From the IMG/VR virus record IMGVR_UViG_3300023115_000113, positions 1-22,135 of that record: 22,135 nt of DNA; one strand, given 5' to 3'. This document shows, one piece after another, positions 8,860 to 21,845 of this stretch (its first letter is position 1; each line of letters begins with the position of its first letter). A program made the position numbers and the translations under genes. Source of the stretch: a virus. A model generated the notes under the pieces. It did no database searches. It was given only the letters and a program-made list of their open reading frames with translations, and had not been told where the DNA came from.

Positions 8860-9103
8860 TGATCGCCTTCTCTAAGTCTGATTCGATATGGATTAGCTTT
8901 CGCTTGCCCTTAATATTCCAATTAATGGAATCATACACGCCATTTTCTCTGGCTTTTTCTTTTAATGAATCAAGCTCGTCATTACTAGCAACTGGCTTGC
9001 TACCTTCTTTTACCCATCCAAGCTCTTTGGCAAGCTTTAAAGAAGCTTTGTTTTCATTGATGGCAATCTCTTTGCCATTTGGCTTTATATAGGTTGTTAG
9101 CAT
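8834..9103 (-). CDS. Small head-region protein of unknown function (89 aa)
   Basis: I choose the ATG at 9103 (MLTTYIKPNGKEIAINENK) because GAGGA lies 4 bases upstream. The longer frame to 9130 would put its start inside the coat terminator. The protein is charged and mostly helical, with ASLKLAKELGWVKEG, a type of short segment found in small phage proteins encoded between coat and neck genes. It has no membrane segment. It is the first gene after the coat terminator and overlaps gp4 by 26 bases, so it may be a head-tail joining or accessory factor. The function is unknown. Confidence 0.6.
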   Translation of the reverse strand: MLTTYIKPNGKEIAINENKASLKLAKELGWVKEGSKPVASNDELDSLKEKARENGVYDSINWNIKGKRKLIHIESDLEKAINDSQNADN

Positions 9104-9112
9104 TCTGTCCTC

Positions 9113-9146
9113 ATTAAAGAAAAGGCGCACCCCAAAGAGTGCGCCT
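9113..9146 (-). terminator. Intrinsic terminator after the coat gene
   Basis: On the minus strand an 8-bp stem AGGCGCAC / GTGCGCCT encloses an 8-base loop (TCTTTGGG) and is followed by TTTCTTTAAT. It begins 8 bases after the coat stop codon. It would partly end transcription after the coat gene, raising coat output relative to the neck and tail genes. Because genes on both sides are co-oriented, it is likely leaky or read through. Confidence 0.8.
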
Positions 9147-9153
9147 ATTTTGG

Positions 9154-10425
9154 TTATGGCAGACCGTAACCTTGACCAGCCATGAATGGGTTCATAACAC
9201 CGAAAGCAGGATGCAAATCAATGCGAAGTTTGTTTACGTTGCCTTCAAAGTTAGAGCCTTTCGATACACGAAGCTGTAAACCATCTTCAGTCATACCCAT
9301 ACTATCCTGCGCGTCTAGTTTCTCCATTGGTACAGACGCGATAGTGAACGCATCACGATGGAAGAATAGGTTTGGCTGGTTAACGGTATCTTCGCTACCT
9401 AGTAGCGTCACAACATCGCCAGCAATCGGCGCACGAGTCACTGTGTTGTAAGCTCCGCCTACTTCATAGATTGCAGGGCCGGTAACAGTAAGAGTGACTG
9501 CACCTGCACCGTCAGCAGTTGCATCTTCGGTTACTACTGCTGTGTACTCAACCTGCGAGCCAGTGGCATCAATGAAAGGCTTGCGAGTGGATAGGTTTAA
9601 GCGATTAACGCCAGTAATTTGAATAGGCTGACCCGCTTTAATTTCTAAGTTAGCAGTCAGACCACTAATAGAAAGCACTTGAGTCATTGTATCCTTGGCG
9701 TTTAAGTAAGTTACGATTGGGTTAGCCGCTAGAGCGCCCACGCGATCAGCGCCAGTTGGGATGGAATAGGTATCCAAGCCAGTAGCCGTCATAACTTTAC
9801 CAAATCCCGCAAAATTCTCCGCCACTGTCGCTTTAGTGTTTGCATCGCCAGCTTGAGGGTTTACACCTAGAGAACGCTGCTCATTAGCTAAAGCTGTTTG
9901 AGAGAATGGGTTCAATAGGTAGCACCAGTTACCATCCATAGGAACGCCAGTAGACTCCATCAGCGCGCCCGCTCCTGCAACCTCAGACCATGAATCCACC
10001 GCCTGACCTACAGAACCATAAGTTAAGCCGGTATTCTTCATACAGAACGAGGCGAAGCTTGTTTCTAGCTCAGTCTTAATGCGGCGTGCAATGTCTGACA
10101 CAAAGCGATCAGAGTTATTACCCATCTCAAGGGCTTGTTCTGCCTCTGAATAATCAACCAATACAGTGATGTAATCTTGAACCACTGCACTAGCCTTGCC
10201 AGTCACAATATCCTGAGCCTGACCCGTCACATCACCTTTTGCGGTGCGCAAAGCTTGATAATCAGTAGGACGCTGAACGTCGATAGTGTCGCCAGTGCTA
10301 GGGTTAAACTTACCCTGAAAAAGTTGCGTGTTTACTTCTTTTGAAACTACTCGCTCAGTGTCAAAGGCTGGGACCACCTTCTCAATTAGCTTTCGCGTAA
10401 TGTTACTTTCAAAGTTATTAGCCAT
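9154..10425 (-). CDS. Major capsid (coat) protein, P22 gp5-like (423 aa)
   Basis: The length (423 aa; P22 coat is 430), the position directly after scaffold, and the N-terminal pattern (MANNFESNITRKLIEKV...FNPSTGDTIDVQRP...QALRT) point to the P22 coat family, an HK97 fold. The segment AAGALMESTGVP-like (actual GAGALMESTGVPMDG) followed by YLLNPFSQTALAN matches the helix and 'F-N-P' loop of the family. Residues about 230-330 form a beta-rich insertion (IQITGVNRLN, VTLTVTGPAIYEVGG), like the extra domain that P22-type coats carry. A strong terminator lies right behind the gene. Upstream, AAGGAA about 6-7 bases before the ATG is the ribosome binding site. Confidence 0.88.
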   Translation of the reverse strand: MANNFESNITRKLIEKVVPAFDTERVVSKEVNTQLFQGKFNPSTGDTIDVQRPTDYQALRTAKGDVTGQAQDIVTGKASAVVQDYITVLVDYSEAEQALEMGNNSDRFVSDIARRIKTELETSFASFCMKNTGLTYGSVGQAVDSWSEVAGAGALMESTGVPMDGNWCYLLNPFSQTALANEQRSLGVNPQAGDANTKATVAENFAGFGKVMTATGLDTYSIPTGADRVGALAANPIVTYLNAKDTMTQVLSISGLTANLEIKAGQPIQITGVNRLNLSTRKPFIDATGSQVEYTAVVTEDATADGAGAVTLTVTGPAIYEVGGAYNTVTRAPIAGDVVTLLGSEDTVNQPNLFFHRDAFTIASVPMEKLDAQDSMGMTEDGLQLRVSKGSNFEGNVNKLRIDLHPAFGVMNPFMAGQGYGLP

Positions 10426-19373: not shown

Positions 19374-19445
19374 TTAAAACGGGATGTCGTCGTCGAAATC
19401 CCCAAACTTATTTTCTTTTGCTACCCCTGAAACGGGGCTTGCTGA
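19374..19445 (-). CDS. -1 frame extension of SSB carrying the acidic C-terminal tip
   Basis: This is the 23-codon stretch read after a -1 shift at the slippery site. It starts with SASPVSGVAKENK and ends FGDFDDDIPF followed by TAA at 19374-19376. DFDDDIPF is the near-universal SSB tip that recruits replication and repair partners. In frame with the shift, the whole protein is 169 aa. It has no plausible start of its own, so it is only meaningful as part of the SSB. Confidence 0.7.
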   Translation of the reverse strand, partial: SASPVSGVAKENKFGDFDDDIPF

Positions 19446-19882
19446 AAATTTGGCTGCTGCCCTCCTTGGTGAACACCCATTGGCTGGCCTTGTGGTGGTG
19501 CTGGTGGTTGGTTTGGATTGCATTGTGGTGCTTGCTGGGGTGCTTGCTGATACTGCTGGGGCTGACTGCCTGAATTAACATAACCAAGTTTGCAGTCGAT
19601 CAACTCAATAGACAATGACAATCCATTCGGTCCTTGAAATTGCTTAACCTTCTCCGCTTCCGCCGTTACTTCAATTACCGCACCTTCAATCAGATTTTGA
19701 CGATAAAACTCAATCTGCTGGGTATTATTAGTGAATACGGCCGCCTCGTAATTAGTCCATTCTCTTTGCTTGGTTTCTCGGTCGTAATACTGCTTACCTA
19801 GCCGGATACCAAAACCAGTATAAGCGCCTGCTTGGAACTCATTTGCAGCTTTATTAAGCTTGCCCGTGATTGTTGTAGCCAT
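19421..19882 (-). CDS. ssb: Single-stranded-DNA-binding protein, zero-frame product (153 aa)
   Basis: The N-terminal part (about 1-100) looks like an OB-fold SSB: MATTITGKLNKAANEF...FGIRLGKQYYDRETK...TNYEAAVFTNN...EGAVIEVTAEAEKVKQF. A Gln/Pro-rich linker (about 103-150) follows. The zero frame stops at TAG 19423-19421 after QQAPFQG, without the acidic tip. The tip is encoded in the -1 frame immediately downstream (19374-19445). SD AGGAGA stands about 4 bases before the ATG. SSB with the preceding annealing protein and downstream NinG makes a recombination/replication unit. Confidence 0.85.
   Translation of the reverse strand: MATTITGKLNKAANEFQAGAYTGFGIRLGKQYYDRETKQREWTNYEAAVFTNNTQQIEFYRQNLIEGAVIEVTAEAEKVKQFQGPNGLSLSIELIDCKLGYVNSGSQPQQYQQAPQQAPQCNPNQPPAPPQGQPMGVHQGGQQPNFQQAPFQG
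19424..19467 (-). promoter_or_regulatory. Candidate programmed -1 ribosomal frameshift signal in ssb
   Basis: In translation order there are three parts. AAGGAGGG (19467-19460) is a Shine-Dalgarno-like sequence. Eight bases later comes the slippery heptamer A AAT TTT (19451-19445) in the zero frame. After a 7-base spacer there is a hairpin, CCCC (19437-19434) and GGGG (19427-19424) around a six-base loop, next to the zero-frame TAG. The layout matches the known dnaX signal. The shift would restore the SSB tip. Confidence 0.6.
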
Positions 19883-19890
19883 CTTATCTC

Positions 19891-20562
19891 CTAACGATAT
19901 TTACTAGCTTCTTCTGTTAAAAATTTACGTGCTTTAGTTGAGTATATTTCTGGTATACCCATTTCTTTACAAGTCTTTGGTGCAACCCACATCTTATTAT
20001 TGTCTTCTTGACTTATTTCGTCATAGCATTGCACTGCATAAGCAAAATCGCCCGATTCGACCGCTTGATTGATTGCCTTTACACTTTCATTGTTCCTGCG
20101 CACTGCATCAATTAAGCCATCTGGAATCTCTTTTTTCTGGAACTCCTGTTGAACTTGCTGCACATACTTATTGTCATCAAACTTACCTAGGAACACATCA
20201 GCATTAAACCCAAGCATTGACAGGCATTTGGTTATACCGTCCGTTGTGGCTTTCTTCATGCAATCCGTGTCTTTCTTGCTCTCGGCTTTATCAATATATA
20301 ATGAAGCCTGCCCCCACTGCTCTACACGCCCCCTTGATTCACCATGCCAAAGTGAAATCAACACACAGACCTCATTTGTTGGAAGATGGTCAACTCGCTT
20401 AACCTCCCAACCCCAGCCATTACCAGCCGCTCCCAATTCGCGTGTAGCGTTTTCAATTTGACGATACGGGTCTATAGCTGTAATGGCGCGGCCAAAAGTA
20501 ACCTTTTTGGTATGCGCTGGATTTGTCGTACAAACCGAATCCCATAACTTCATATTACTCAT
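19891..20562 (-). CDS. Putative single-strand annealing protein, Sak/DUF1071-type (223 aa)
   Basis: The first half matches a pattern I associate with the Sak3/DUF1071 group of Rad52-like phage annealing proteins: KLWDSVCTTNPAHTKKVTFG...ITAIDPYRQIENATRELG...GWGWEVKRVDHL, then a Trp/His motif LISLWHGESRGRVEQWG. Near residues 95-130 lies DTDCMKKATTDGITKCLSML followed by GFNADVFLGKFDDNKYV, a very typical feature (K-A-x-T-D-x-x-x-K-x-L-S-x-L-G-F-x-A-D-V). The C-terminal third is a helical tail. The product would anneal ssDNA during recombination with the following SSB. The start overlaps the upstream stop as TAATG. Confidence 0.7.
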   Translation of the reverse strand: MSNMKLWDSVCTTNPAHTKKVTFGRAITAIDPYRQIENATRELGAAGNGWGWEVKRVDHLPTNEVCVLISLWHGESRGRVEQWGQASLYIDKAESKKDTDCMKKATTDGITKCLSMLGFNADVFLGKFDDNKYVQQVQQEFQKKEIPDGLIDAVRRNNESVKAINQAVESGDFAYAVQCYDEISQEDNNKMWVAPKTCKEMGIPEIYSTKARKFLTEEASKYR

Positions 20563-21084: not shown

Positions 21085-21432
21085 TTAATCGTCCAATGGG
21101 TGCCAATCCGCCTTAATTCCATGCTTTGCCAGCTCTGCAACGTATGCCTGTCTTGCCTCTTTTTCAGTATTGCATCTTGGCAAACAGTGCTTTTCCCCAT
21201 TCACAAAGACTTGCGGGCGGTATCTTACAATGCCGCTTTTGGATGTCTCCTTCGAGAACCCCTTGCCTCTCCCTAGTCGCGCTTGCAATACGCTTTTCCT
21301 GAATTCGCTTTCACACTCTTCATTATCCTTATTCTCAATTACTTTGCTGGGCTTTGACTTAATACTAACCAGCGCACCCAGTGCCATTTTTGCGCTTAAG
21401 CTTGGGTCTGGCTCCATTCCGAAATAAATCAT
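21085..21432 (-). CDS. AP2-like domain protein, paralogue B (115 aa)
   Basis: The N terminus MIYFGMEPDPSLSAKMAL is shared with the next gene upstream. The C-terminal half (residues about 70-108) reads SGIVRYRPQVFVNGEKHC, then CNTEKEARQAYVAELAKHG. This is the strand-strand-strand-helix layout of AP2-like DNA-binding domains, often part of phage-borne homing endonucleases. No HNH catalytic motif is visible. A DNA-binding function is inferred. The start overlaps the stop of paralogue A by ATGA. Confidence 0.6.
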   Translation of the reverse strand: MIYFGMEPDPSLSAKMALGALVSIKSKPSKVIENKDNEECESEFRKSVLQARLGRGKGFSKETSKSGIVRYRPQVFVNGEKHCLPRCNTEKEARQAYVAELAKHGIKADWHPLDD

Positions 21433-21845
21433 AGCATCCCCTTTATTTGACTCTCGATCCCTGAGACATTCGCTTGAATCATCAACTCATAGGCCGCTCT
21501 AGCTTCCTTATCGCAATCGAATTGCTTCCAGCCATCGGCCAGCTTCACTGAATGCTTAACTATCCCATTGGGGTACTTCTTTGATTGATAGCCTTTGTGT
21601 TTTAATCGCGCTCTCTGTGCGTATAGCTCTTTTGCCAAGTCCCATGCTTTATTGCAGTCTTCAATTGAGTCAAACGAACCAATGCGAACCTTATTGCCCT
21701 TTACGCGAAAATAGCAAACAAACTTCCTACCACCCTCTACGCAGTCGCTCCTCAGCTTTCCTCTATTTAATCGTCTAAGCTCTAGTTCAGTCAGTACCAT
21801 CTTTGCGCTTAATGCTGGATTGGGTGTCATTCCGTAGTAGATCAT
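21429..21845 (-). CDS. AP2-like domain protein, paralogue A (138 aa)
   Basis: It begins MIYYGMTPNPALSAKMVL, almost the same as its neighbour. One AP2-like unit spans about 38-76 (GRKFVCYFRVKGNKVRIGSF, then SIEDCNKAWDLAKELYAQ). A second, weaker one spans about 90-125 (NGIVKHSVKLADGWKQF, then CDKEARAAYELMIQ) and resembles the unit in the neighbouring protein. The start overlaps the upstream stop as ATGA. It may bind DNA as a regulator or be a remnant of a homing nuclease, since no HNH residues are visible. No function is established. Confidence 0.65.
   Translation of the reverse strand: MIYYGMTPNPALSAKMVLTELELRRLNRGKLRSDCVEGGRKFVCYFRVKGNKVRIGSFDSIEDCNKAWDLAKELYAQRARLKHKGYQSKKYPNGIVKHSVKLADGWKQFDCDKEARAAYELMIQANVSGIESQIKGML

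Follow-up and report, generated by a model that had tools for sequence, protein, structure and literature searches.

Programmed -1 ribosomal frameshifting as the very likely source of the acidic tip in a phage single-stranded DNA-binding protein

How can a phage single-stranded DNA-binding protein (SSB) obtain its acidic C-terminal tip when its gene stops before the tip is reached? This question is raised by the ssb locus of IMG/VR record IMGVR_UViG_3300023115_000113, of which the whole 22,135-nucleotide stretch analyzed here is called the window. The acidic tip of SSB is a hub that recruits bacterial replication, recombination and repair proteins to single-stranded DNA. The zero-frame product of the window ssb, 153 amino acids long, ends with GGQQPNFQQAPFQG followed by the stop and lacks the tip. 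The -1 frame passes through the zero-frame TAG and encodes KFSASPVSGVAKENKFGDFDDDIPF before its own stop, that is, a C-terminus ...GDFDDDIPF; the acidic tip ending in PF is present only in the -1 product. A preliminary description, made from the sequence alone, had reported the zero-frame stop at 19421, the -1 frame with DFDDDIPF and a stop, the heptamer A AAT TTT, an SD-like element 8 nt upstream of it and a hairpin 7 nt downstream, beside the TAG, and had interpreted this arrangement as -1 frameshifting. All these features held, positions included, when the sequence was re-read, and the interpretation is supported by comparative evidence. The layout itself is shown (Table 1); that ssb uses -1 programmed ribosomal frameshifting to yield a tipless and a tipped SSB from one mRNA is very likely, there being no protein or reporter data.

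Table 1. Features of the ssb locus, in window coordinates
Feature	Position	Strand	Remarks
Adjacent upstream recombination gene	19891..20562	minus	223 aa, PHROG 7838 'exonuclease'
ssb, zero frame	19421..19882	minus	153 aa + TAG; ATG at 19882, stop 19423-19421
SD-like element AAGGAGGG	19460..19467	minus	8 nt upstream of heptamer
Slippery heptamer A AAT TTT	19445..19451	minus	zero-frame Asn-Phe; re-pairing AAA TTT in -1
Hairpin GCCCC-GUUUCA-GGGGU	19423..19438	minus	directly downstream of heptamer
Zero-frame stop TAG	19421..19423	minus	
-1 frame extension SASPVSGVAKENKFGDFDDDIPF	19377..19445	minus	23 codons
Acidic SSB-Ct tip DFDDDIPF	19377..19400	minus	in -1 frame
-1 frame stop TAA	19374..19376	minus	

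The zero-frame product comprises an OB-fold core (approximately residues 1-103) followed by a Q/P/G-rich linker. It matches PHROG 44 'single strand DNA binding protein' (E=1.2e-10), and no match was found in Pfam and PDB sequence searches. The AlphaFold model of residues 1-110, for which 32 relatives were used, is a confident beta-barrel (pLDDT 91), and the best PDB matches of this model in a Foldseek search are bacterial SSBs (E ~2e-5, TM ~0.5). On this evidence, the protein is an OB-fold SSB, with single-stranded DNA binding and the oligomer state inferred. In the relatives, ssb is accompanied by genes for Erf, Rad52 or Sak4 annealing proteins, or for YqaJ exonuclease. The PHROG exonuclease label of the gene preceding ssb in the window may be wrong because the same position in relatives is occupied by annealing proteins. 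Elsewhere in the window (21085-21845), two neighboring ORFs on the minus strand both have MIY(Y/F)GM.P.P.LSAKM as N-terminal motif, and starts resembling this motif are also found upstream of ssb in the relatives L002 and L003.

The heptamer fits the X XXY YYZ pattern in the zero-frame phase and lies inside the -1 overlap, the hairpin falls within the 5-8 nt after the heptamer expected of a downstream structure, and the SD-like element lies within the range of dnaX-type elements (~8-14 nt upstream). The CCCC (19437-19434) and GGGG (19427-19424) segments of the hairpin start 7 nt 3' of the heptamer, with the TAG immediately after; RNAfold pairs GCCCC with GGGGU, with a modest z of about -1.7, and the hairpin resembles stem 1 of the pseudoknot in L002 and L003. 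The predicted fusion consists of SSB residues 1-146 plus 23 residues, 169 amino acids in total. The preliminary description held the co-occurrence of the three signals against a sequencing indel. This argument is weak as far as the heptamer alone is concerned, which is not significant against codon shuffles of the window (P=0.36 for any in-frame heptamer in the 50-codon overlap); a heptamer is thus expected by chance in about one-third of the cases, and therefore, the relatives decide the matter and the case is a comparative one. The SD-like element, in contrast, is strong and unusual: it forms an anti-SD duplex of -11.9 kcal/mol, which is equaled in only 0.7% of the codon shuffles. Searching Rfam produced no matches.

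Three designs of the split gene, denoted A, B and C, were recognized among loci collected by similarity of the OB domain, without use of the frameshift signal. In all split relatives found in this manner, the tip is in the -1 frame, and in none is it in the +1 frame. Design A is that of the window, and L001 and L005 keep its heptamer (in phase and position), hairpin, stop and -1 tip; at 99% and 96% protein identity to the window SSB, respectively, these are close relatives, which lessens their weight as evidence. Design B includes five loci with A AAT TTC (L002, L003, L006, L106 and L010) and one with G GGT TTT (L037), among which L010 and L106 were added by DNA pattern searches rather than by OB similarity. 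In all six, the heptamer is followed, after 5 nt in L002, L003, L006 and L037, by GCCCC-A-GCGNTA-GGGG(C/U) and then by the downstream partner of GCGNTA, so that the element is an H-type pseudoknot enclosing the zero-frame TAG. In the six sequences, 98.5% of the cells of this pseudoknot are paired, compared with 35-52% when it is slid, and one stem-2 pair covaries (G-C / A-U / C-G), a covariation that is confined to a single pair in only six sequences. The SSB of L010, which carries the design B element, is a bacterial-type PF00436 protein, and hence the frameshift and pseudoknot element seems to move between SSB backbones. Side by side, the ~40-nt element at the L010 locus (8979-9530) is nearly identical to those of L002, L003, L006 and L106; its presence on different OB domains suggests that recombination may swap a tail module between phage SSB genes.

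In design C, G GGA AAG is located immediately 5' of the zero-frame stop in L061, L065 and two cultured phages of a Vibrio collection, 1.076.O (MG592452) and 1.210.O (MG592580), the listed host of the former being Shewanella. The records of both phages annotate ssb only as far as the zero-frame stop. In several members with G GGA AAG, the downstream structure is weak or missing. Among relatives at a greater distance, the tip is mostly in frame, which makes the split trait patchy, and others have a degenerate PF ending; L004, L073 and L088 are tipless in every frame although their genes look intact. In gammaproteobacterial genomes, the ten loci of the family show either an ordinary tip in frame or a PF ending that resembles one. 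On the OB-domain tree, the split trait requires ~10 changes, at least 8 of which are forced by well supported branches; the exact number is unsure because of the few columns and recombination. At L060 (2001-2447), a tip-like sequence out of frame and without a heptamer resembles a plain indel, providing a contrast case.

It had been stated in advance that frameshifting would be refuted by relatives whose frame is uninterrupted and that lack a slippery site. The outcome of this check is that close relatives retain the split together with a canonical heptamer and a stimulator, and that distant ones mostly have the tip in frame. Enrichment of SD-like pairing is seen over 14 members (Fisher P 1.7e-4, and 0.0013 without the window), even though the element is missing in several members and thus not conserved in all relatives; in some, the pseudoknot is found in its place. 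The recurrence of the heptamer across the five lineages that were identified without using it is only moderate evidence (Fisher 0.006). Taken together, the comparative data go far beyond the chance expectation, and the conservation of the layout is shown.

Beyond the zero-frame stop, purifying selection acts on the -1 frame, with a pooled pN/pS of 0.16. In this region, the window and L001 differ by 3 synonymous and 0 nonsynonymous changes in the -1 frame, and 1.076.O and 1.210.O by 6.5 and 1.5, respectively; the tip is retained in widely diverged members. Thus, the tip frame evolves as protein-coding, which is shown for selection and which we read as translation, the product itself being inferred. 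Conservation of the split frame and its signal combined with coding selection in the shifted frame, the criterion for such cases, is met.

The alternatives can be weighed against this evidence. That an ordinary continuous ssb was split by a sequencing or assembly indel, or by a recent frameshift mutation, is suggested by the many relatives with an in-frame tip and by L060, which lacks the heptamer and looks like a plain indel. However, independent contigs and two cultured phages share the same -1 split at canonical heptamers, and coding selection persists beyond the zero-frame stop. This reading is very unlikely for the window, and for the group it is refuted, being ruled out by the relatives. 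Equally hard to sustain is the possibility that the -1 tip is a relic and the tipless SSB the only functional product: L004, L073 and L088 look intact without a tip in any frame, but the pN/pS of the -1 extension and the retention of the tip in widely diverged members argue strongly against it.

Transcriptional slippage, whereby RNA polymerase would yield mRNAs with the tip in frame, predicts the same two proteins, and there is a short T run in the window. Nevertheless, the homopolymer runs are just 3-4 nt (AAATTTT, AAATTTC, GGGAAAG), and the heptamers, SD-like elements and pseudoknot point to the ribosome, so this alternative is very improbable. Somewhat less remote, albeit still unlikely, is the possibility that frameshifting is real but regulatory rather than fixed in ratio, for example, if the levels of SSB or single-stranded DNA alter the efficiency via occupancy of the mRNA. 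Structured elements overlapping the stop would suit such regulation, and the stimulators vary between lineages; against it, no conserved binding site is seen apart from the frameshift signal, and several G GGA AAG members have no obvious downstream structure.

Under the preferred reading, programmed -1 ribosomal frameshifting, most ribosomes would read A AAT TTT in frame and halt at the TAG, releasing the tipless 153-residue protein with its OB-fold and linker. A minority, which the hairpin ahead would stall and the pairing of the SD-like element with 16S rRNA would pull, would re-pair on AAA TTT and read 23 more codons, yielding the 169-residue SSB that ends in DFDDDIPF. The slippage itself and its efficiency are inferred. 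In E. coli, G_GG.A_AA.G is one of the three heptamers that shift most readily, and the tetramers U_UU.[U,C] likewise stand among the most shift-prone of their length (PMC4066793); the heptamers of the window type and of the pseudoknot type have such a tetramer at their 3' end. The number of tips on an SSB oligomer would then be set below saturation, which would restrict how much of the phage annealing protein and of the host SSB partners is recruited. Without its last six residues (NDYPPF), the SSB of phage HK620 no longer allows Sak4 to bind the DNA that it coats, and it inhibits annealing instead of stimulating it (PMC5928155), from which it is inferred that a mix of tipped and tipless SSB would set the recruitment of annealing proteins and host partners. 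The preliminary description had claimed two SSB forms in a set ratio; the production of both, the ratio and its importance remain inferred.

Frameshifting is already well known from dnaX, lambda G/GT and Ig-like appendages (PMC5009743). The likeness to E. coli dnaX (tau/gamma), claimed in the preliminary description, holds for the window, which shares the set of three parts (a heptamer, an SD-like element 5' of it and a hairpin 3' of it) in a replication gene that would likewise give a long and a short form. The heptamers differ (A AAT TTT in the window, A AAA AAG in dnaX), and the dnaX shift shortens the protein whereas the predicted shift in ssb adds the functional tip; the relatives of the window differ in the stimulator and, unlike dnaX, have either a pseudoknot or G GGA AAG and lack a consistent SD element. 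The lambda G/GT tail-chaperone gene, also a phage gene, has the G GGA AAG of the design C SSBs and gives a minor, C-terminally extended product, and as in the SSB group, the arrangement is conserved despite sequence divergence. However, G/GT functions in tail morphogenesis and adds a chaperone domain, whereas SSB belongs to DNA metabolism and would gain a ~15-40-residue tail with a protein-docking motif. The Ig-like domains of phage structural proteins (T3, A2 and others) are also C-terminal interaction modules added by frameshifting that, as is inferred for the SSB tips, arose independently in different proteins (PMC5009743), but they are virion modules, whereas the SSB-Ct motif resides on DNA-binding proteins. 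The HK620 SSB, another phage SSB adjoining an annealing protein (Sak4), acts via a six-residue tip that, unlike that of the window SSB, is an ordinary C-terminus with no frameshift described (PMC5928155).

As the preliminary description had supposed, no account of SSB frameshifting was found in the open-access literature searched, subscription papers, preprints and supplements being outside the search. SSB is not mentioned in the main text of the 2013 and 2024 frameshift surveys, whose supplements were not covered, or in the first 300,000 characters of a 2016 frameshift review. What would be new, then, is a known mechanism making the partner-binding tip of SSB conditional, apparently recurrently. 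Should frameshifting be the means by which phages set the share of tipped SSB, the density of tips would be a regulated quantity, directly testable; DNA-metabolism proteins would be another recurrent target of programmed frameshifting in phages, annotation would miss the tips of such SSBs, as it does for 1.076.O and 1.210.O, and a natural experiment on the role of tipless SSB would be available.

The recurrence extends to other families of single-stranded DNA-binding proteins. IMG/VR was scanned completely for GGGAAAGTA followed by tip codons, so that these loci were chosen by the heptamer and controls matter. Among the 11 loci found, 8 have the tip in the -1 frame, and all of these combine a zero frame that ends 0-3 nt past the heptamer with a -1 frame that is closed 2-16 codons 5' of it. 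Two of the eight are the contigs of L061 and L065, already included in design C; the others encode a PF00436 SSB (L121), a PHROG 44 protein (L120), a relative of L007 and L106 (L115), a Gp2.5-like protein (L122), an uncharacterized protein within a Sak4 locus (L118) and a 70-aa protein of unknown family (L123). By comparison, in partial control scans, only 1 of at least 66 non-GGG NNNAAAGTAR tip sites is split, the others being ordinary continuous ORFs or otherwise unsplit, and none of at least 57 CCCAAAG tip sites; the difference between GGGAAAG loci and control sites is highly significant (Fisher P below 1e-9). The combination of GGGAAAGTA and a tip was not found in 369 gammaproteobacterial genomes. 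In the phage collection searched, the L118 and L123 proteins have no cultured relatives; the nearest record to L121, Vibrio phage 41E34.2, has the tip in frame without a split, and that to L122, a Thiohalocapsa phage, is tipless without a split. Because unrelated phage DNA-binding proteins share the arrangement, the switch seems to have evolved repeatedly in phages. A conditional SSB-Ct tip produced by -1 frameshifting is thus likely to be a recurrent phage strategy that was reached independently in several unrelated families, namely, PHROG 44-like OB SSBs, PF00436 SSBs, Gp2.5-like proteins and the L118 and L123 proteins, with frameshifting setting the number of docking tips that coat phage single-stranded DNA.

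The lone split control, L205 (near 2101), is unexplained: its zero frame is open for 618 codons and ends in ...RKRESK, an SDDDIPF tip is in the -1 frame, and the site, GTCAAAG, is not a canonical heptamer. In the predicted frameshift products of L006, L106, L037, L002 and L010, the tails run beyond DDDIPF with related extensions, and those of the in-frame SSBs L025, L026, L050 and L052 likewise continue past this motif. The extensions include SNYQL(K/R)GYWI, MRI.NEYIY and APIGL....L.HC(I/M), so the Phe of the tip is not C-terminal in these SSBs.
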